Positions 25,294 to 37,467 of a DNA stretch of 64,000 nt are shown piece after piece. The stretch's first letter is position 1; each line of letters begins with the position of its first letter. Under the pieces are notes generated by a model. The model did not search any database. It saw nothing but the letters and a program-made list of their open reading frames with translations, and had not been told where the DNA came from. This DNA is from Methanospirillum sp. (lineage in GTDB: Archaea; Halobacteriota; Methanomicrobia; Methanomicrobiales; Methanospirillaceae): positions 1 through 64,000 of the forward strand of contig JAAYEG010000017.1 of assembly GCA_012728895.1 (NCBI GenBank), given 5' to 3'. The position numbers and the translations under genes are program-made.

Positions 25294-27042
25294 TCAGGTG
25301 AACCTGAACGAGTCGAAGTTCAGGCCGTCCCCGTGGAACTGGATCCGGACCCGGTGTGTCCCCTTCGCGAGCCGGATTTGGGTCGATATCGAGGAGTAGG
25401 TCTCCATCGACCAGGTCCGGGGAGCCATCACCATCACCTCGGAACGGCCATCGACCTTCATGTCGAAGAACTGGCCGCCTGACTGGCTCGCGAGCCGGAA
25501 CGCGAGCTGGTAGTACCTTTCTTCGGGAATGGTGACCGTGTACTCGAGCCATTCACCGGACCTGATCTGCGTCACGACGTAGCTCCGGATCGCGGGGGCG
25601 TAGACGATATCGACCCCGTCGCCCCGGTACGCCCCGGCCTGGTTCCCCGGCGTCGTGTCGTGGTACGAGACGCCCTCGCCGCCGGGATTGTAATCCTCGG
25701 ACTGGATCGTTCCGGGGAGAGGAACGGCGGAACCCGTTTGCGACGGGACCGCCTGAGTCGTCCTCGTAACCGTGGGTGCCGTGGTGGTCGGCTTCACGGT
25801 GGCGGACCCCGCAACGGCGGAGAACGTGACCCGGTCCAGGTTCTGGCCGTCCCCGGAGAACCGGAACCGCAGCACCGCCGTGCCGGACGGGAGCGGGAGC
25901 GTGGTCGACGCCGTCGTCCACGCGCCCGGACCGCCCGTGGTCGGGACGGAGACCGTCGCGGCGTCCTTTCCGTTCACTGAGACCGCGATCGAGTGCGAGG
26001 AGGAACCCCAGGATGAGACCCGGAAGTCGGCACGGTACCGACCCACCGAAGAGACCGCGACCGTGTACTGCAGCCACTCCCCGTCCCGGACGAACGCGAG
26101 GTTCGTGGTGCCTCCCTGGACCTCGATGTCGACGTCGTCCTGGCGGTACGCACCGCCGCTGTTCCCCGGCGTCGTGTCCCGGTACGAGACCCCCGCGCCA
26201 CCGGGGTCGTAGTCTTCAGCCTCCAGGACACCCGGGACCTTCCGGACGGACAGCGACGGGACCGCCTGAGTCGTCCTCGTAACCGTGGGACGGACGGTCG
26301 GGACCGTCGTCCCGGGACCCGGGGACATCCTCGATAGGACGGGGGCGAGTGCCCGGTGCCAGGCACCCGCCATCTTTCGCTCCCCCGAGGTTTTCGGGTG
26401 GATCCCGTCGGGCTGGTTATCGGCGACACCGTCGTACCCCGTGAAGAGGTCCACGACCGCGACGGGGGAGGTCGGGGTCGAGAGCCCGGCGGCGATCGAG
26501 GGGAGGGCCCTGTTGAAGTCGAGCAGCAGCCCCTTGCTGTTGAGGCCCGCATCGCCGGTCGGGATGATCTGCGCCATCAGGACACGGACCCCCGGGTTCT
26601 TCTGCCGGAGGATCGAGACGATCTTCTTCATGTTCGCGATCCGGGTCGCGAGCGGTATACCTTCGAGCGCGTCGTTCGTTCCGACGTGAAGGAGGACAAT
26701 GTCCGGTGCCGGGGAGGACGCGAGCCAGGCGGCGAGGGGCGAGAACGACGGGGTCCCGACCATCATCCCCGTGGTGTATCCCCCGTGCCCCTCGTGATTC
26801 TGGTCAAAGGCGAACTTCGTGAACGCGGTAGAGGTCGAGCCCACGAAGTCCAGGCTGTATCCCGATGCGCGGAGGGATTCGTCGAGGTAGTAGCGGTAGC
26901 TCGGGTACGGGGAGGTGGTCCACGAACCGCCGCGCGTGATCGAGTCTCCGAGCGGCATGACCTTCACCGCGGCATCGGCCTGGACGGCGAGCGGCGCAAT
27001 GCAGATGCAGATGATGAGCAGAGAGAGGACGCGGAGTGTCAT
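25294..27042 (-). CDS. secreted SGNH/GDSL-type esterase with two carbohydrate-binding (CBM6-like) modules
   Basis: Signal peptide; VMPLGDSITRGGSW, DIVLLHVGTNDALEG, DGIHPKTSGERKMA; two copies of the EAEDYDPGG/SEDYNPGG...SYHDTTPGN...GEWLQYTV CBM6-like module. Confidence 0.85.
   Translation of the reverse strand: MTLRVLSLLIICICIAPLAVQADAAVKVMPLGDSITRGGSWTTSPYPSYRYYLDESLRASGYSLDFVGSTSTAFTKFAFDQNHEGHGGYTTGMMVGTPSFSPLAAWLASSPAPDIVLLHVGTNDALEGIPLATRIANMKKIVSILRQKNPGVRVLMAQIIPTGDAGLNSKGLLLDFNRALPSIAAGLSTPTSPVAVVDLFTGYDGVADNQPDGIHPKTSGERKMAGAWHRALAPVLSRMSPGPGTTVPTVRPTVTRTTQAVPSLSVRKVPGVLEAEDYDPGGAGVSYRDTTPGNSGGAYRQDDVDIEVQGGTTNLAFVRDGEWLQYTVAVSSVGRYRADFRVSSWGSSSHSIAVSVNGKDAATVSVPTTGGPGAWTTASTTLPLPSGTAVLRFRFSGDGQNLDRVTFSAVAGSATVKPTTTAPTVTRTTQAVPSQTGSAVPLPGTIQSEDYNPGGEGVSYHDTTPGNQAGAYRGDGVDIVYAPAIRSYVVTQIRSGEWLEYTVTIPEERYYQLAFRLASQSGGQFFDMKVDGRSEVMVMAPRTWSMETYSSISTQIRLAKGTHRVRIQFHGDGLNFDSFRFT
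25741..26289. repeat. 36-nt direct repeat (25741-25776 and 26254-26289) in the linker of the SGNH-CBM protein
   Basis: CGACGGGACCGCCTGAGTCGTCCTCGTAACCGTGGG occurs identically twice, 513 bp apart. Confidence 0.85.
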
Positions 27043-27330: not shown

Positions 27331-28047
27331 ATGCGGACGTTCCGGGGCCCGCACCTCGCGGCCGCCCACGAATGGGCGGTTCGGACAGTGCTCGAGAAGG
27401 GGTACGCGGTCACGACGGAGAACGGCGAGGAAACGATCGAGTGTGAGCCGATCGCCCTCGAGGTCCGGGAACCCCTGGCCGAACCGATGGCAAGCCCGGC
27501 CTCACGGTTCCAGCGCAGGTTCCTCGAACAGTACGCGGCCGATCTCCTCGAGGGCTCGGGGGCCGTTTTTGAGTACGACTACCACTCGCGCCTCTTCGAA
27601 TGGGGCGAGGGGCTCGTCCGGGACGAGAGACCGGTCTCGGTCGACCAGATCGCGTACATCGCCCGGAAGTTGACCGGGGCACCGCAGAGCCGCCGGGCGA
27701 TGGCGATCACCTGGAACCCAGCCACCGACGAGGAGATGCGAGACTGCCCCTGCCTCCAGCTCGTCCAGTGCGAGCTCCGCCAGGGACGGCTCGCCATGCA
27801 GGTCGTCTTCCGCTCGAACGACATGCTCTCGGCCGTCGGCGCCAACATGTTCGCGCTCGTCAATCTGCAGCGCGCTATCGCCGGACGACTCGGGGCGGAC
27901 CTCGGGACGTACACCCACATCTCGCTCGTGCCCCACATCTATCACCGGAGGGACGCGTCCGATCTCGCCCGGTTCTGCGAGCGCTTCGGCTCGATAACGC
28001 CCGTCCCCGGCGCCTGCACGGTCTGTCGGGGGTGCCCGGGGCGCTGA
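27331..28047 (+). CDS. thyA: archaeal-type thymidylate synthase family protein
   Basis: MAITWNPATDEEMRDCPCLQLVQCELRQGRLAMQVVFRSNDMLSAVGANMFALVNLQ resembles the TS CPCLQ...RSxD...N motifs. Confidence 0.72.
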   Translation: MRTFRGPHLAAAHEWAVRTVLEKGYAVTTENGEETIECEPIALEVREPLAEPMASPASRFQRRFLEQYAADLLEGSGAVFEYDYHSRLFEWGEGLVRDERPVSVDQIAYIARKLTGAPQSRRAMAITWNPATDEEMRDCPCLQLVQCELRQGRLAMQVVFRSNDMLSAVGANMFALVNLQRAIAGRLGADLGTYTHISLVPHIYHRRDASDLARFCERFGSITPVPGACTVCRGCPGR

Positions 28048-28101
28048 CCACGGCTCTCCGGCACCTTTTTCATCGTTCAGGGCGACGTTTCTTGGCACAG
28101 C

Positions 28102-28174
28102 AGCCCGGTAGTGTAGCGGTCAATCATGGTGGACTCTGGATCCGCCGACAGCAGTTCGAATCTGCTCCGGGCTA
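28102..28174 (+). tRNA. tRNA-Gln (anticodon CUG, 28136-28138), no encoded CCA
   Basis: AGCCCGG/CCGGGCT acceptor, anticodon arm GTGGA-CTCTGGA-TCCGC, T arm AGCAG-TTCGAAT-CTGCT. Confidence 0.9.
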
Positions 28175-29206: not shown

Positions 29207-30496
29207 CTACCACTCCACGACCATGACCGCCTCCTCCTCGTCCGTGAGAGGCATATCCGTCTCTTTCGGGTCGAACCGGTAGGCTGTCCACGGATCGTAC
29301 TCGGGGTAGAGAGCGGCCTTGTCGAGCACGTCGACGAACTCGCGCAGGAAGAGGCGCGGAATCACGTCGACACGGCCGCCGAACCGCCCCGTCAGCTGCC
29401 GGATCTGGGCCCGGATGAAACGGTGGCTCACCCGTTCGCGGTCGACCTCGCCGTGCGCCTCGGCGTAGATGTCCATCACGCGGAGCGCGACCTGCTCGAG
29501 CTTCTGCGCATCGAACCGGGCGAGCGCGAGCTGGGGCTGGAGCGGGTTCCTGAAGCCGTCGTCGCCGACGGTCCCGATCCGGTCCGCGAGGGGCGGGACC
29601 GACCGGATCCCTTTCGCGCCCTCGAAGAGCGAGGGGGTGCCCGTGAAAAGCAGGTAGCAGTGGGCGAGTTCCCCCCTGTCGAGAAGGTCGATCAGCTGCC
29701 GGAGGTTGTTGTAAGCCTTCTCCCGCGAAGCCTTGGTGAGGGCCTGAGTCGTCTCGGCCTCATCGAGCGCGATCACGAGCCCGACGTAACCGGCGCCGCG
29801 GATTACGGCCACAAGGTCGGCGAGGAAGGCGAGCGCGACGGTCTCGTCGATGGTGCCCCGGACGCCGGCCTTCGCGCGGAACGGCCGGCCCACGTTCGGC
29901 TCGCCCGCGAGCCAGCCGAGCGCGGCCTGGGCGAGGGCGTAGTCTTCGTCGGCGTTCGCCTCGTAGTACGCCCGGACGGCGGCCGCGAACGCGCTCGATC
30001 CTTCCGCCAGCTCGGCGAGCGACCGTTCGATCGACCGGACCGTCTCCTCGCGCAGCTCGTCGTCGGAGATCTCGTTCCCCCGGATCTCGAGCACCCGCTC
30101 CTCGATCGCGTACAGGAACGAGTCGATCACCGGCTTGAACGCTGCCTCCTCGTCGCGCGTCTTCAGATTCGCGCAGATACGCTGGTACACGGACCGGAGC
30201 CGGGAGAAGGGGGTCTCGGACGAGACCACGACATGGGCGGTGGCGAACCCCTCCTGCTGGGCGAGCTCGATCGCCCGGGCAAGCAGGAAGGTCTTGCCTG
30301 CGCCGTAATCCCCCTTGATGAACTTCAGGTCCCCTCCACCGTCGGCCACGTACCCGAGCTGACGGGAGATCACGCCCTCCTCTACCTCGATCCCGACCGC
30401 GAGCCTCGAGAGGCCGCTCGCCGGGACCGTGCCGCGCCGGAGCGCGTTGATGATGTTGATGCTCTCGCTTCGTCCCCTATCGTCCGACATAGACAT
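29207..30496 (-). CDS. BREX-type ATP-binding protein (BrxD/DUF2791-like P-loop ATPase)
   Basis: IINALRRGTVPASGLSRLAVGIEVEEGVISRQLGYVADGGGDLKFIKGDYGAGKTFLLARAIELA (Walker A GDYGAGKT), LVIALDEAETTQALTKASREKAYNNLRQLIDLL (Walker B), FTGTPSLFEG, IPRLFLREFVDVLD. Confidence 0.82.
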   Translation of the reverse strand: MSMSDDRGRSESINIINALRRGTVPASGLSRLAVGIEVEEGVISRQLGYVADGGGDLKFIKGDYGAGKTFLLARAIELAQQEGFATAHVVVSSETPFSRLRSVYQRICANLKTRDEEAAFKPVIDSFLYAIEERVLEIRGNEISDDELREETVRSIERSLAELAEGSSAFAAAVRAYYEANADEDYALAQAALGWLAGEPNVGRPFRAKAGVRGTIDETVALAFLADLVAVIRGAGYVGLVIALDEAETTQALTKASREKAYNNLRQLIDLLDRGELAHCYLLFTGTPSLFEGAKGIRSVPPLADRIGTVGDDGFRNPLQPQLALARFDAQKLEQVALRVMDIYAEAHGEVDRERVSHRFIRAQIRQLTGRFGGRVDVIPRLFLREFVDVLDKAALYPEYDPWTAYRFDPKETDMPLTDEEEAVMVVEW

Positions 30497-32270
30497 ACTC
30501 CTCTCCCTCGTCCCCGGCCCCCTTTCGTTCGATCAGGCTCATCCCCTGGCTGCCGGCCCGACGGATCAACCGGTTGACCAGCCCGGCCACGCGCCGGGTT
30601 CCGAGCACGGCCCTCAGGTCGTGCTCGGTGGCCGAACGGTGCTCCCGCAGGAACGCGACCACCCTGGACTCCTCGGGCGAGAGCGCGAGCGCCGCCTCCG
30701 GCGGAGGGGCCGGCGGCTCGCGGGCGGCGGAGAGCGTGTGCGAGCGCCCGAGCACGGGGCGGTCCAGCACGGCCTCCTCCTTGCATCGGGCGAACAGGGC
30801 CCCGAAGTCGTCGAGGCGGAGATCGGATGCGAAGATCGGGAACAGGTCGAGGCCGATCAGGCAGCACTCCTTGGCCAGGTCGAACCGTCCGGCTTCGAAC
30901 GCGTCCGTGGCGCGCGCCAGCAGGGCGACGGCGGCGAGTTCCTGGCCGAACGAGGAGAGGGAATCGCGCCGTGCCGCGAGCCGGTCCGCGAGCCGATCGA
31001 GCAGCCGGGGGAGGCGGTGCATCCCGGTCGCGGCGTCGAGCGCGACCTCGGCCACGCGCTCAAGGTCGGCGGTCTTGGTCGCGTTCTCGGTGCAGTAGAG
31101 CATCACCTTCTCGCACTCCCGCAGGTCGTCCTGCCGGGCCAGGAACCGGGCATAGGCGAGTCCGCCTCGGATGAAGTCGGTCCGGTATGCCCGGTAGAGG
31201 TGGTCCCTTGCCAGGACCACGTCGCCCTGCCGCTCCGCCGCCTCCCCGATCCTCACCAGGCCGACCGTCGTCGGGTCTGACCCCACCACCTCGAGATACC
31301 GGGCGAGGGCCTGCTCCGGGGAGCGTGCCGCGAGGAGGATCTCCTCGTACCGGCGGAGCACGCACTCCAGCGTCTCGATCTCCTCGAGCGAGCCGAGCAG
31401 ATCGAGAACGAGCATTTCGGCAGCCGCCTCGGCTCCGGCCCGGTCGCCGGCGAGCCCCGTCAGCTCGGCCTCGAGCAGCCGGTGATACGGGGCCGGGTCG
31501 GCTGCCGCGAGCGAGCGTGCCACCTCGAGCGCCTCCCCGAAACGCCCGAGCGTCTTCAGGAGGAGGACCCGGTCGAAGTCGATCCCGGTATAAGCACCGG
31601 ACCAGCCCTGATAGGCCAGAGCGGCCCCCTCCGGGTCGAAGACCGCCCATGCCCCCAGGTGGGCCCGGAGGAACTCCATGTCACCCGTCGCCTCGAAGGC
31701 TTCGGCCGCGACATCGGCCGCGCGCCGGAACAGCCCGGCGCCGAGCAGCGCCCGGGCCGCCTCGATCGTCGGGGGGAGGGGGGGCGTTGCCTCGAGGACG
31801 CGAACCGCCTCCTCGAACTCGGCCTGCGCGATCAGTGACCGGGCGAGCAGGAGGCGGTCCTCGGGGCGGGACGAGACCGCAGTGAGCCGCAGACCGAGCG
31901 CGGCCGCCGCGCGATGATCCCCGCGCGCGGCGAGGTAGCCCGCGTACTCGCGGAGCGCCTCGGGGTTGTCGGGGTCGAGCCGGATCGCCTCTGCGAACTC
32001 GGCCGTCGCCCGCTCGTCGCCCCGCGCCGCGAGAACGCGCCCGAGGAGGCTGTGCAGGTACGAGGCCTCGGGGAGCCTGCGCGCGAGATCGCGGAGGTAC
32101 GCCTCGGCCTCCTCGTTCCGTCCGAGCCGGTGGAGGGCGGTCGCCGCGAGCACGGCGAGCTCGGGCTCGGCGCCGTCCTGCATCAGTGCCTCGGCGATCT
32201 CCAGCGCCTCCGGCAGGTCGCCCTCTTCGAGCAGCCGGAACGCCCGGCCCTTCTCGGTCTCGCGGGTCAT
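30477..32270 (-). CDS. TPR-repeat protein with C-terminal winged-helix-like domain
   Basis: Repeated TPR-like segments (AEAYLRDLARRLPEASYLHSLLGRVLAARGDERATAEFAEAIRLDPDNPEAL...); C-terminus SPEESRVVAFLREHRSATEHDLRAVLGTRRVAGLVNRLIRRAG looks like a wHTH. Confidence 0.78.
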   Translation of the reverse strand: MTRETEKGRAFRLLEEGDLPEALEIAEALMQDGAEPELAVLAATALHRLGRNEEAEAYLRDLARRLPEASYLHSLLGRVLAARGDERATAEFAEAIRLDPDNPEALREYAGYLAARGDHRAAAALGLRLTAVSSRPEDRLLLARSLIAQAEFEEAVRVLEATPPLPPTIEAARALLGAGLFRRAADVAAEAFEATGDMEFLRAHLGAWAVFDPEGAALAYQGWSGAYTGIDFDRVLLLKTLGRFGEALEVARSLAAADPAPYHRLLEAELTGLAGDRAGAEAAAEMLVLDLLGSLEEIETLECVLRRYEEILLAARSPEQALARYLEVVGSDPTTVGLVRIGEAAERQGDVVLARDHLYRAYRTDFIRGGLAYARFLARQDDLRECEKVMLYCTENATKTADLERVAEVALDAATGMHRLPRLLDRLADRLAARRDSLSSFGQELAAVALLARATDAFEAGRFDLAKECCLIGLDLFPIFASDLRLDDFGALFARCKEEAVLDRPVLGRSHTLSAAREPPAPPPEAALALSPEESRVVAFLREHRSATEHDLRAVLGTRRVAGLVNRLIRRAGSQGMSLIERKGAGDEGEEYVYVGR

Positions 32271-33049
32271 CGCGGTTCCTTCGCTCCCGCAGCCCACCAG
32301 AGCGCGACGAGACGCCTGAGCATCGGCATGGAGTCCCCGCCCCCGACCTTCGAGCCGCCGTGGTCGTACCAGACCGTCGGCACCTCGACCACCCGCGCCC
32401 CGCGCCGCGAGAGGCGCCATAGGAGCTCGACATCGAACTCGAAACCCGTCAGCTCCATCTCGCCGAGTACCGGGAGAAGCGCCTCCCGGCGGAAGACCTT
32501 CGCCCCGCACTGCGTGTCCGCGTACGGGAGGCCGAAGAGGAGGCGGATCAGCAGGTTGAAGGCGCGGGACTGGAGGCGCCTGAGGGGGCCCTGCCGGACG
32601 GGCACCACCGCACCGGATGCCCAGCGGGAGGCGATGGCTCCGTCGGCGTCCCCCAGGAACGAGAAGAGCCGGACCATCTCTGCCGGCGCAGTCGAGCCGT
32701 CCGCATCCATGAACCCGACGAACGGGGTCCGGGCGGCCCGGAAGCCGGCCATGATCCCTCCGCCCTTACCGAGCCGGGCCGGGAACTCGAGGCAGGTGAG
32801 CGCGAGCTGCGGGTGGCTGGCCCCGAACTCGCGCACCAGGTCTGCCGTCCGGTCCGTCCCGTCCGCAACCACGATCACCGGTCCACCGAATCCGGCCAGG
32901 GACGCGAGCAGACCTCCGATGCGCCGCTCCTCGTTGTAGGCCGGAACCACGATCGTGCAGTCTGCCGGTACTGCCGCAACCGTCCCACAAGCAGTCTCGC
33001 CCGGCACCCGCACTCCGTCCTCCGATCGACCGCCGTCACCGGCGATCAT
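32267..33049 (-). CDS. family 2 glycosyltransferase (dolichyl-phosphate sugar synthase-like)
   Basis: CTIVVPAYNEERRIGGLLASLAG...PARLGKGGGIMAGFRAARTPFVGFMDADGSTAPAEMVRL...YADTQCGAKVFRREAL. Confidence 0.88.
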   Translation of the reverse strand: MIAGDGGRSEDGVRVPGETACGTVAAVPADCTIVVPAYNEERRIGGLLASLAGFGGPVIVVADGTDRTADLVREFGASHPQLALTCLEFPARLGKGGGIMAGFRAARTPFVGFMDADGSTAPAEMVRLFSFLGDADGAIASRWASGAVVPVRQGPLRRLQSRAFNLLIRLLFGLPYADTQCGAKVFRREALLPVLGEMELTGFEFDVELLWRLSRRGARVVEVPTVWYDHGGSKVGGGDSMPMLRRLVALWWAAGAKEPR

Positions 33050-34140: not shown

Positions 34141-37100
34141 ATGACAGACGATTACGTGCGGGTTCAACGAATACGGGTAGGGACCCTCAGGATCTGGGCC
34201 ATCATCGGGCTGGTATCGCTCGCGGCATGCGGGGGGCTCGCCGGTGCGGAGGAGACGACCTTCGCCCCGGTGCTGCCGGCAGACATCAGGCTCTGCGCGG
34301 ACTTCGACGAGTCTTTTTTTCACGACGTCGTCTTCGACGGAACTCGGTACGTCGTGGTCTGGGCCTCTCACGAGGTTGGGCGGACCGGCATCCGGGGGCA
34401 ATTCATCGGGACGGACGGGCTGCTGGGCGCCTCGTTTCTGATCGCGGACCCTGAGAGTCCGACACAGCCCCGGATCGCGTGCATCGGCGGGAGGTACCTC
34501 GTCGTCTATGCCTCGAGTGCCGGGATCAGCGGCAGTATCGTCGAAGCCGACGGAGTCGTGGGGCCGACGATCCCGATCTGCTGGGCGACGAATGTCCAGA
34601 CCGCTCCGGAGGTTATCCCAGGGGCATCGAGTCTCCTCGTCGTCTGGCAGGATCACCGGGCCCATGCCACGAACATGGGCGACGTGTACGGGCGGTTCGT
34701 GAGCCCGTCCGGCGCGCCCGAGGGCGACGAGTTCCTGATCGGCCCCACCCTTGAGCACCAGCGCTGCCCGGTCGGCTCATTCAACGGCCAGGACTTCCTG
34801 GTGTTCTGGACCCAGGAGCCGGAGACCAGCTCGAACGTCGGGGACATCCACGGCGCGCGGGTCTCCCCGGACGGGACGGTCCTCGACCCCGGGGGCTTTC
34901 CGGTCTGCACGGCGGTTGCGTCACAGTCCACTGCTGGCGCGGCGTGCGCGTCCAGCCCGGACGGGACGACCGCGCTCGCGTGGGTGGACCGCAGGACGGG
35001 CCTGGACATCCTCTACTCCGTGCGGTTCTCGCGGGACGGCTCCGTCCTCGACGGGCCGGCACCGTCGGCGGGGCTTCCCGTTTTCCAGGACATTGCGTTC
35101 CCTCCCGCGTGTCCCTCGATGACATTCAACGAGCGCGATTTCGTGCTCTTCTTCGGCTACAACTCCCGGATTGTCACCGCACTCCTCGGCACGGATGGCA
35201 CCGTCACCGTGCCCCAGCGGGTCCCGGTCACCGTCGGGTCATCCCCGGTGAGCAGCGCCTGTGCGTTCGACGGGACGAACTACCTGGTGACATGGGCGAC
35301 CGCGAGAACCGGGCAGATATGGGCGCAGCTCGTGACCGGCGCAAACCGGCTCCCGGTCGCCGAGGCGGGCGAGGGGTATTCCTTCCAGGCGGTCCGGGGT
35401 GCGGGCCTGATGGACGGGGGGGCGAGCACCGACCCGGACGGCGACCTCCCGCTCACGTACCGCTGGAACATCGTCTCGAAGCCGGCGAACAGTTATCCGA
35501 GCCTCTCGGGGGGATGGACCAGGATTGCGACGCTCAAGGCGTCGGTAGCAGGGGAGTACGCCGTCGAGCTGACCGTCACCGATGCTCATGGTGCAATTGG
35601 ACTGCCCGACCGGGTGACCTTCACGGTCACGCCCTACACGAACCTGGCGCCGGTCCTCGACCCGATCGAGCCCGTCTCGGTAACGGAGCTCCAGGTGATC
35701 GAGATCCGACTGGCCGGCACCGACCCGGACGGAGATCCCGTTGAGTACGGGGTCTCGTTCCTGCCGGTGGGAGCGACCTTCGACCTATCCACCTCGACGT
35801 TCACCTGGACACCGTCCCAGGACCAGGCAGGGACGTATTACGTGAAGTTCTGGGCGAAAGACAGCCGGGGCGCCACCTCGTACCGGACAGTAGCCATCAC
35901 CGTTGCGGACCTGAACAGGGCCCCTGTGCTCACATCGACCGGCGATTGGACCGTAGACGAGGAAGAGACCATCGAGATCACCCTGGATGCAAACGATGCC
36001 GACGGCGACATCCTGACCTATTCGGTGCAAGGGATGCCGGATGGCGCGTCGTTCGATGGCGAGGCGGGACACTTCACCTGGACGCCGAGCAGCGAGCAGT
36101 CCGGCGACTACCCGGTCGTCTTCAGCGCTTCCGACGGAAAAGAGAGCGATACGGACGAGATCGTGATCCACGTCATTGATCTAGACCGCACACCGCCGTT
36201 GATCACGGTGCCTGAGCTGCAGGTCATCGATCCCGGAAACAGCATCGTCATCGGGGTGGGGGACGCCATCTCGGCGACCGTCAGCCTGAACGGGGCGGTT
36301 CCAACAACACTGCTCCCGCAGGAGGGTTCGATCGTACTCCCCATGCCTTCGATTCCCGGTGCGTACACGGTGACCGTCGCTGCCGTGGACTTCGCCGGAA
36401 ACGTGGCGGACGCGTCCTTCCCGGTCACTATCGCGGACAGGACACCACCGGCCATCGCCGTGCCGACGGACACGGACACGCTCCCCCCAGGGGGATTCGA
36501 GATACGCGCGACCGATGATTCCGGTAGACTTACCATCGCCTATGCTGTGGATCTCGACGGCCAGACTGTGGCTTCCGGCACGGGCACCGAACCGCTCGTC
36601 ATCCCAGCAACCATATTCGGAGAGACCGGTTCGTACACCGTCAAGCTCACGGCCACCGATGCGGCCGGGAACGAGGCGACCGCTGGCTTTTCGGTCGATA
36701 TCGACGTTGCTACCCCCATCGTCGACGCCATCGCGGCAACACCGAACCCGTCGCAGGTCCTCACGGCGATCCGGGTGACGGCCGTCGTGGACGACACAGC
36801 CCCGTGCAGCAGCGGCGTCGCCCAGGCATCATACACCCTCGACGGCCTGTCCTGGCACCCGATGGTCGCATCCGACGGATCCTTCGGCGGGACTGTCGAA
36901 CTAGTCGACGCCACGCTCCCGGCCTTCACGTCGGCGGGAGTGTACAGCATCCGGCTCCGGGTGACGGACGGCGCAGGCAACTCCGGCGAGAGCTCAGAGT
37001 CCCTCCTCCTCGCCGTCTACGACCCCTCGGCAGGGTTCGTCACCGGCGGCGGCTGGATCGAATCCCCCGCCGGCGCCTACATCGAGGACCCTCTGATGAC

Positions 37101-37467
37101 CGGCAGGGCGACCTTCGGGTTCGTCGCGAAATACCGGAAGGGGGCATCGGTGCCGACCGGCCAGACCGAGTTCCAGTTCAGGGCTGCCGGCTTCACCTTC
37201 CACTCCGAGATCTACGACTGGCTCGTGGTGGCCGGCGCGCGGGCGCAGTTCAAGGGGACCGGCACGATCGACGGTCAGGGGGACTACGGCTTCATGCTGA
37301 CCGCGATCGACGGCGCGGTCAACGGCGGCGGCGGGACGGACCGGTTCAGGATCCGGATCTGGGACCGCGCCTCCGACAGGATGGTCTACGACAACGAGGC
37401 GGGCCTGAGCGATGCGGGTATTCCATCGACGGCTCTCGGTGGCGGGGCGATCATCGTCCACGCATAG
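34141..37467 (+). CDS. large secreted/surface protein with cadherin/Ig-like repeats and C-terminal post-COAP-like domain
   Basis: N-terminal hydrophobic segment with lipobox-like SLAAC; repeated tandem beta-sandwich segments (NRAPVLTSTGDWTVDEEETIEITLDANDADGD...); C-terminal FVTGGGWIESPAGAY...GRATFGFVAKYRKGASVPTGQTEFQFRAAGFTFHS. Confidence 0.8.
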   Translation: MTDDYVRVQRIRVGTLRIWAIIGLVSLAACGGLAGAEETTFAPVLPADIRLCADFDESFFHDVVFDGTRYVVVWASHEVGRTGIRGQFIGTDGLLGASFLIADPESPTQPRIACIGGRYLVVYASSAGISGSIVEADGVVGPTIPICWATNVQTAPEVIPGASSLLVVWQDHRAHATNMGDVYGRFVSPSGAPEGDEFLIGPTLEHQRCPVGSFNGQDFLVFWTQEPETSSNVGDIHGARVSPDGTVLDPGGFPVCTAVASQSTAGAACASSPDGTTALAWVDRRTGLDILYSVRFSRDGSVLDGPAPSAGLPVFQDIAFPPACPSMTFNERDFVLFFGYNSRIVTALLGTDGTVTVPQRVPVTVGSSPVSSACAFDGTNYLVTWATARTGQIWAQLVTGANRLPVAEAGEGYSFQAVRGAGLMDGGASTDPDGDLPLTYRWNIVSKPANSYPSLSGGWTRIATLKASVAGEYAVELTVTDAHGAIGLPDRVTFTVTPYTNLAPVLDPIEPVSVTELQVIEIRLAGTDPDGDPVEYGVSFLPVGATFDLSTSTFTWTPSQDQAGTYYVKFWAKDSRGATSYRTVAITVADLNRAPVLTSTGDWTVDEEETIEITLDANDADGDILTYSVQGMPDGASFDGEAGHFTWTPSSEQSGDYPVVFSASDGKESDTDEIVIHVIDLDRTPPLITVPELQVIDPGNSIVIGVGDAISATVSLNGAVPTTLLPQEGSIVLPMPSIPGAYTVTVAAVDFAGNVADASFPVTIADRTPPAIAVPTDTDTLPPGGFEIRATDDSGRLTIAYAVDLDGQTVASGTGTEPLVIPATIFGETGSYTVKLTATDAAGNEATAGFSVDIDVATPIVDAIAATPNPSQVLTAIRVTAVVDDTAPCSSGVAQASYTLDGLSWHPMVASDGSFGGTVELVDATLPAFTSAGVYSIRLRVTDGAGNSGESSESLLLAVYDPSAGFVTGGGWIESPAGAYIEDPLMTGRATFGFVAKYRKGASVPTGQTEFQFRAAGFTFHSEIYDWLVVAGARAQFKGTGTIDGQGDYGFMLTAIDGAVNGGGGTDRFRIRIWDRASDRMVYDNEAGLSDAGIPSTALGGGAIIVHA

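Follow-up and report, generated by a model that had tools for sequence, protein, structure and literature searches.

We analysed a 64,000-nucleotide stretch of a Methanospirillum sp. genome (the window; contig JAAYEG010000017.1), in which three minus-strand genes are predicted to encode a GT2 glycosyltransferase, a tetratricopeptide repeat (TPR) protein with a C-terminal winged helix, and an AAA+ ATPase related to BrxD, a component of type-2 BREX (bacteriophage exclusion) systems (Table 1). A first-pass annotation of the DNA sequence had already described these genes and their overlapping ends. The open reading frames (ORFs) and both overlaps are borne out, and Pfam, NCBIfam and AlphaFold results agree with the families that it had assigned. 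The GT2 stop codon and the TPR start codon share an ATGA at positions 32267-32270, and the GT2 open frame reaches on to 33136, past the ATG at 33049. From their overlap, the TPR and ATPase genes are presumably coupled in translation.

Table 1. Positions of the three genes and their notable features in the window
Feature	Position	Strand	Remarks
GT2 glycosyltransferase	32267-33049	-	260 amino acids (aa) from ATG at 33049; Glycos_transf_2 match
TPR solenoid protein with C-terminal winged helix	30477-32270	-	597 aa; TPR_19/TPR_16 matches
BrxD-type, putatively ORC/Cdc6-like AAA+ ATPase	29207-30496	-	429 aa; PF10923, NF033438
Walker A of ATPase, KGDYGAGKTF	30287-30316	-	key residues invariant in 22-sequence alignment
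Walker B of ATPase, GLVIALDEAET	29750-29782	-	D-E pair invariant in 22-sequence alignment
C-terminal winged helix of TPR protein, residues 532-594	30489-30677	-	AlphaFold model
TPR/ATPase gene overlap, 20 nucleotides	30477-30496	-	ORF coordinates

The TPR and ATPase genes form a conserved pair

Among 60 related genomes, orthologs of the TPR protein and of the ATPase occur in the same genomes and are directly adjacent. The adjacency holds in all 21 regions that were fetched and in all 28 named archaeal loci, which come from Methanoregula, Methanolinea, Methanocorpusculum, Methanocalculus, Methanospirillum and metagenome-assembled genomes (MAGs) of the order Methanomicrobiales. (In one of these 28, L157, the TPR gene is split into several frames.) Furthermore, the end of the TPR gene overlaps the start of the ATPase gene by 14-20 nucleotides in most archaeal loci measured. 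Because the adjacency recurs in both sets and the overlap is mostly kept, the pairing is more than a chance arrangement. This survey of neighbourhoods in Methanomicrobiales, which the first-pass annotation had proposed, thus found the winged-helix TPR partner conserved beside the ATPase, and the annotation's phrase ‘repurposed ATPase-plus-sensor module’ fits the two reasonably well.

Around the pair, Methanomicrobiales have a stable housekeeping locus, which consists of genes for aminotransferases, GuaA, CTP synthase and a thioesterase, followed by DJ-1, GT2, the TPR protein and the ATPase, an HD/OB protein and HisD. The GT2 gene lies directly upstream of the pair in most of family f1 and in part of family f6, and overlaps it in the window's genus. 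All three genes had initially been treated as one unit, but while the TPR and ATPase genes are always adjacent to each other, the GT2 gene is a dispensable neighbour. In families f2 and f5, which lack the pair, the DJ-1, GT2 and HD/OB genes are adjacent. In the complete genome G028, taken here to be Methanospirillum hungatei JF1 (PMC4704411), GT2 is directly followed by HisD, and exactly the TPR and ATPase genes are missing. Conversely, the pair is kept with no adjoining GT2 gene in the MAG G022, in family f4 and in part of f6. Since GT2 stays without the pair and the pair stays without an adjacent GT2, we regard GT2 as an ancestral neighbour, and rejected it as a component of the system.

Features of the ATPase and its TPR partner

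The ATPase scores 418 bits against the Pfam family BrxC_BrxD (PF10923) and 412 bits against the NCBIfam BrxD model NF033438, whose cut-off is 350. In a comparison using PADLOC models, it scores 415 bits for BrxD versus 154 bits for SngB, the corresponding ATPase of Shango systems. Its identity to bacterial BrxD proteins is about 40%, and in a phylogenetic tree the archaeal ATPases form one clade (support 96/98) beside bacterial BrxD and outside the Shango clades. The key residues of both Walker motifs are invariant (Table 1). The AlphaFold 2 model of the ATPase (pLDDT 77) has weak structural neighbours, which include ORC/Cdc6 proteins, RdrA, BrxC and NLR ATPases. A. pernix ORC2 and S. solfataricus Cdc6/Orc1 are among the top matches, all of them weak; the best, 1w5t, has an E-value of 0.0028 and a TM-score of 0.34-0.37.

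The AlphaFold model of the TPR protein has a confident solenoid, then a disordered linker and the winged helix (pLDDT about 86). In the alignment and the model, the winged helix is well conserved with the element order H-b-H-H-b-b (H, helix; b, strand), and the region of the recognition helix is basic, with on average 4.6 K/R versus 0.5 D/E. By sequence, nothing significant in Pfam or the PDB matched the winged helix, and a Foldseek search with the TPR model returned generic TPR proteins only. No profile similarity between the TPR protein and SngA, the adaptor of Shango, was detected with hhalign, and homology of the winged helix to SngA was rejected on this basis. Our literature search found nothing that joins BrxC/BrxD with tetratricopeptide proteins, nor did it find the term DUF2791. 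The TPR-winged-helix protein represents a new family, whose set of partners is clear and open to testing.

An unlinked BrxHI-type helicase is inherited with the pair

BrxD of type-2 BREX forms a tightly linked dyad with the helicase BrxHI, which it has been proposed to load or activate (PMC12839542). Downstream of bacterial BrxD, we found a gene of about 700 aa in nearly all loci whose flank is present, and an annotated bacterial example has the order PglZ–BrxD–DEAD/DEAH helicase. More generally, a BrxHI-like helicase adjoins the other BrxD-family ATPases examined, namely BrxD of BREX2, SngB (where the helicase is SngC) and two further archaeal groups. The first-pass annotation had seen neither a helicase nor PglZ, and had named BREX genes elsewhere in the genome as evidence that would count against its reading. 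Near the operon its observation holds, but genome-wide it holds for PglZ and not for the helicase: contig C9:1060-3333 encodes a BrxHI-type helicase (758 aa if the longest start is used), which scores 531 bits against the PADLOC BrxHI model.

When the relatives were searched with the BrxHI model, an extra, full-length BrxHI-like helicase of about 720 aa emerged at an unlinked locus in genomes that have the TPR-ATPase pair; an Lhr helicase of about 900 aa was found in these genomes and also in pair-less ones. The helicase and the pair are on different contigs in the window's own genome, and are hundreds of kilobases apart in single-contig genomes (e.g. G009 and G031). The neighbourhood of the helicase is chromosomal and partly conserved between genera. 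In a tree, the archaeal helicases form one clade (support 100) near BrxHI and SngC, away from Lhr and outside the Shango clades.

We determined co-occurrence in 199 sampled genomes of Methanomicrobiales, 132 of which are at least 90% complete. Across this sample, the ATPase is present in 110/199 genomes and the TPR protein in 112/199. Among the more complete genomes, the ATPase, the TPR protein and the helicase are each present in 83/132, and these are the same genomes (the first two numbers are tallies, while the helicases were counted by hand from the listed matches, with a best E-value below 1e-200). The remaining 49 have neither the ATPase nor a helicase of this group. Mismatches between ATPase and helicase are confined to MAGs that are at most 89% complete: three (G026, G438 and G439) have the ATPase without the helicase, and five (G019, G441, G382, G386 and G408, the last with a partial match) have the helicase without the ATPase. 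Since G382 and G408 do carry the TPR gene, missing contigs are likely behind these mismatches. Within genus g12, three genomes (G028, G429 and G443) lack both the pair and the helicase, and both are present in five others. The 295 genomes of the phylum from outside the order gave no ortholog.

On an RpoB tree of 51 genomes (G058 was left out), in which every family is supported, presence changes four times, and the pair and the helicase are concordant in 4/4 changes, all on supported branches. The system is found in family f6 but not in its sister f5, it is missing from f2 and f3 but present in f4 and f1, and the other two changes are its absence from G007 and from G028. The pair and the helicase are co-inherited. 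Because the position of the pair is common to f1, f4 and f6, one early gain followed by repeated joint loss is favoured over several gains. Pairwise tree distances, corrected by RpoB, correlate at 0.86 (ATPase-TPR), 0.88 (ATPase-helicase) and 0.92 (TPR-helicase), while the same correlations with the housekeeping controls HisD, GuaA and CTP synthase are 0.46-0.67. The three genes are under purifying selection, with dN/dS ratios within the genus of 0.14 (ATPase), 0.27 (TPR) and 0.23 (helicase). Finally, we rejected a present-day mobile origin, since no relatives of the system were found in the viral contigs searched, the plasmid search gave no match for the TPR protein, and plasmid matches of the ATPase are all below 60% identity (among the matches listed, most are annotated as BrxD or BREX).

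Relationship to known systems

The phosphatase PglZ belongs to the core of every BREX system (PMC12839542). The genome of the window, which is 95% complete, has no match to PglZ (PF08665; found in 12/61 genomes searched) and no second BrxC/D-family protein, as its sole PF10923 protein is the ATPase in the window. Judged by these two absences, the system is not BREX, in line with the earlier view of a BrxD-type ATPase outside a BREX context. What it has in common with type-2 BREX are the two proteins of the dyad: the ATPase exceeds the BrxD cut-off, the helicase matches BrxHI, and both are close to their BREX counterparts in the trees. However, BrxD and BrxHI adjoin in one locus in type-2 BREX, but are encoded at separate loci here, where they are accompanied by a new TPR-winged-helix partner and are vertically inherited core genes rather than parts of a defence island. 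These relationships also call for caution, in that the NCBI BrxD model and the PADLOC models for BrxD and BrxHI match these genes. By counts of single genes, most genomes in three Methanomicrobiales families would seem to have parts of BREX, which itself is mostly absent from these families.

Shango (SngABC) has the same three-part plan of an adaptor, a BrxD-family ATPase and a BrxHI-family helicase. We nonetheless rule out that the system is Shango, because the ATPase and helicase fall outside the SngB and SngC clades and there is no detectable similarity to SngA. In addition, a TerB-type SngA adjoins the ATPase in Shango where the TPR protein does here, and the three genes are not one operon here.

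Archaeal Lhr proteins (aLhr1 and aLhr2, ‘Lhr-like’ in PMC8301817) share a superfamily 2 (SF2) helicase core with the system's helicase, which also has a weak WH_Lhr match. However, the latter is only about 720 aa long, lacks the DEAD_assoc domain of the longer Lhr of G028, and is separate in the tree. Archaeal Lhr, to which the helicase is distantly related, acts on replication forks (PMC7437997). According to a survey of Lhr, two archaeal genomes, both from outside Methanomicrobiales, have Lhr-like proteins, and aLhr2 is missing from this order (PMC8301817). Lastly, ORC/Cdc6 initiators and signal transduction ATPases with numerous domains (STAND) are likewise AAA+ proteins with Walker A and B motifs, and a winged helix is available here in the partner. 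It is on a separate TPR protein, however, and the structural matches are weak.

During these comparisons, we observed further BrxD-family loci. Seven loci in the same archaeal order (L117, L118, L119, L120, L121, L123 and L124) are Shango-like, with the order SngA-ATPase-SngC; the proteins of L117 were compared with PADLOC models, and the others were assigned by tree and gene order. L115:116-4281 (and also L114 and L116), from genus g50 in family f12 of the phylum, encodes a 258-aa protein together with a BrxD-like ATPase, which is divergent, and a BrxHI-like helicase. The 258-aa protein looks EVE/PUA-like by eye and has no Pfam or PADLOC match, and the triple is an apparently undescribed BrxD-BrxHI system. 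A third arrangement (L122:8129-12527, L125:8866-12882 and L129:8565-12811) consists of a BrxD-family ATPase, a second ORF that is partially similar to BrxD, and a short BrxHI-like helicase (about 530 aa or truncated), and forms a separate clade in both trees.

Proposed function and alternative explanations

The explanation that we favour, with moderate confidence, is that the TPR protein and the ATPase are two of the three subunits of an old, vertically inherited core machine found in many methanogens of Methanomicrobiales, whose third subunit is the unlinked BrxHI-type SF2 helicase, and which likely serves genome maintenance. We infer a physical complex, helicase loading, DNA binding and a cellular role. 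The BrxD-type, putatively ORC/Cdc6-like ATPase would assemble with ATP and load or activate the trans-encoded helicase, as proposed for BrxD and BrxHI in type-2 BREX. The TPR solenoid would be a scaffold that binds the ATPase and/or another protein, and the basic winged helix would target the complex to DNA. The complex would more likely serve the routine upkeep of the genome at unusual DNA structures than keep out phages. Such a role is favoured by the vertical inheritance, the stable loci and the purifying selection, and innate immunity is less likely.

Several observations weigh against this explanation. The presence of the system changes independently only four times, so that a sign test gives p 0.125 and cannot reach 0.05. 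Part of the covariation of rates may stem from genes being faster in general in the Methanospirillum lineage; the control genes are slow ones. In contrast to BREX and Shango, no genome seen has the helicase linked to the pair. Moreover, whole families lack the system, so that it is not essential, a slightly unusual trait if its function is maintenance.

Since the close characterized relatives are defence proteins, the main rival explanation is a minimal innate antiviral system, in which the same ATPase-helicase dyad would attack foreign DNA, and the TPR-winged-helix protein would be a sensor in the place of SngA or PglW. Shango, with the same dyad and one adaptor, protects against phage (PMC10250203), and repeated absence of an entire system is typical of costly defence. 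We nevertheless consider this explanation unlikely, given the stable housekeeping loci, the single copy per genome, the vertical pattern and purifying selection, and the lack of matches in viral contigs and, for the TPR protein, in plasmids. Moreover, the Shango-like systems in the order are separate, sporadic loci.

AAA+, TPR and winged-helix domains together resemble the domain set of STAND regulators. The ATPase and the TPR-winged-helix protein could thus be a split signal-transduction ATPase, i.e. a two-protein, STAND-like transcription regulator, with the co-occurrence of the helicase a by-product of shared history. The basic recognition helix and the conserved, coupled gene pair would fit such a regulator, but it is improbable because the unlinked helicase tracks the pair at all four state changes, has its highest rate covariation with the TPR protein, and belongs to a type whose gene adjoins every other ATPase group examined. 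That the whole GT2-TPR-ATPase operon is one functional unit for envelope or glycan modification is very improbable: it would account for the upstream and, in the window's genus, overlapping GT2 gene, but the loci that have GT2 without the pair, or the pair without an adjacent GT2, largely refute it, and the envelope-modification role that had been suggested is without support. Least credible is a decayed type-2 BREX locus drifting without function, as the presence of BrxD and BrxHI and the lack of PglZ and BrxC might suggest, since it is refuted by dN/dS ratios of 0.14-0.27, by the invariance of the Walker motifs, by frames that are intact in three families and by the joint retention of the genes, to which a TPR partner was added.

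More broadly, and tentatively, the BrxD/BrxHI dyad of anti-phage systems may also exist as an ancient, vertically inherited cellular machine for chromosome maintenance, with a lineage-specific TPR-winged-helix subunit. If so, type-2 BREX, Shango and the cellular form would be branches of one family of helicase loaders, and the TPR-winged-helix protein, the TerB protein and PglW would be alternative targeting subunits for the same motor. Few parts of type-2 BREX are as poorly understood as BrxD and its helicase, and the dyad, which occurs here as a core system outside a PglZ/BrxC context, offers a simple setting for testing its action.

Other genes in the window

The thioesterase and CTP synthase genes, which adjoin each other in most relatives, are separated in the window by a gene for a 1108-aa, repeat-rich predicted surface protein (34141-37467). 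Positions 27331-28174 contain a thymidylate-synthase-like gene (238 aa, partial profile match) beside a tRNA-Gln (ctg) gene. A 582-aa predicted secreted protein is encoded at 25294-27042, and appears by eye to be SGNH hydrolase-like with carbohydrate-binding repeats.

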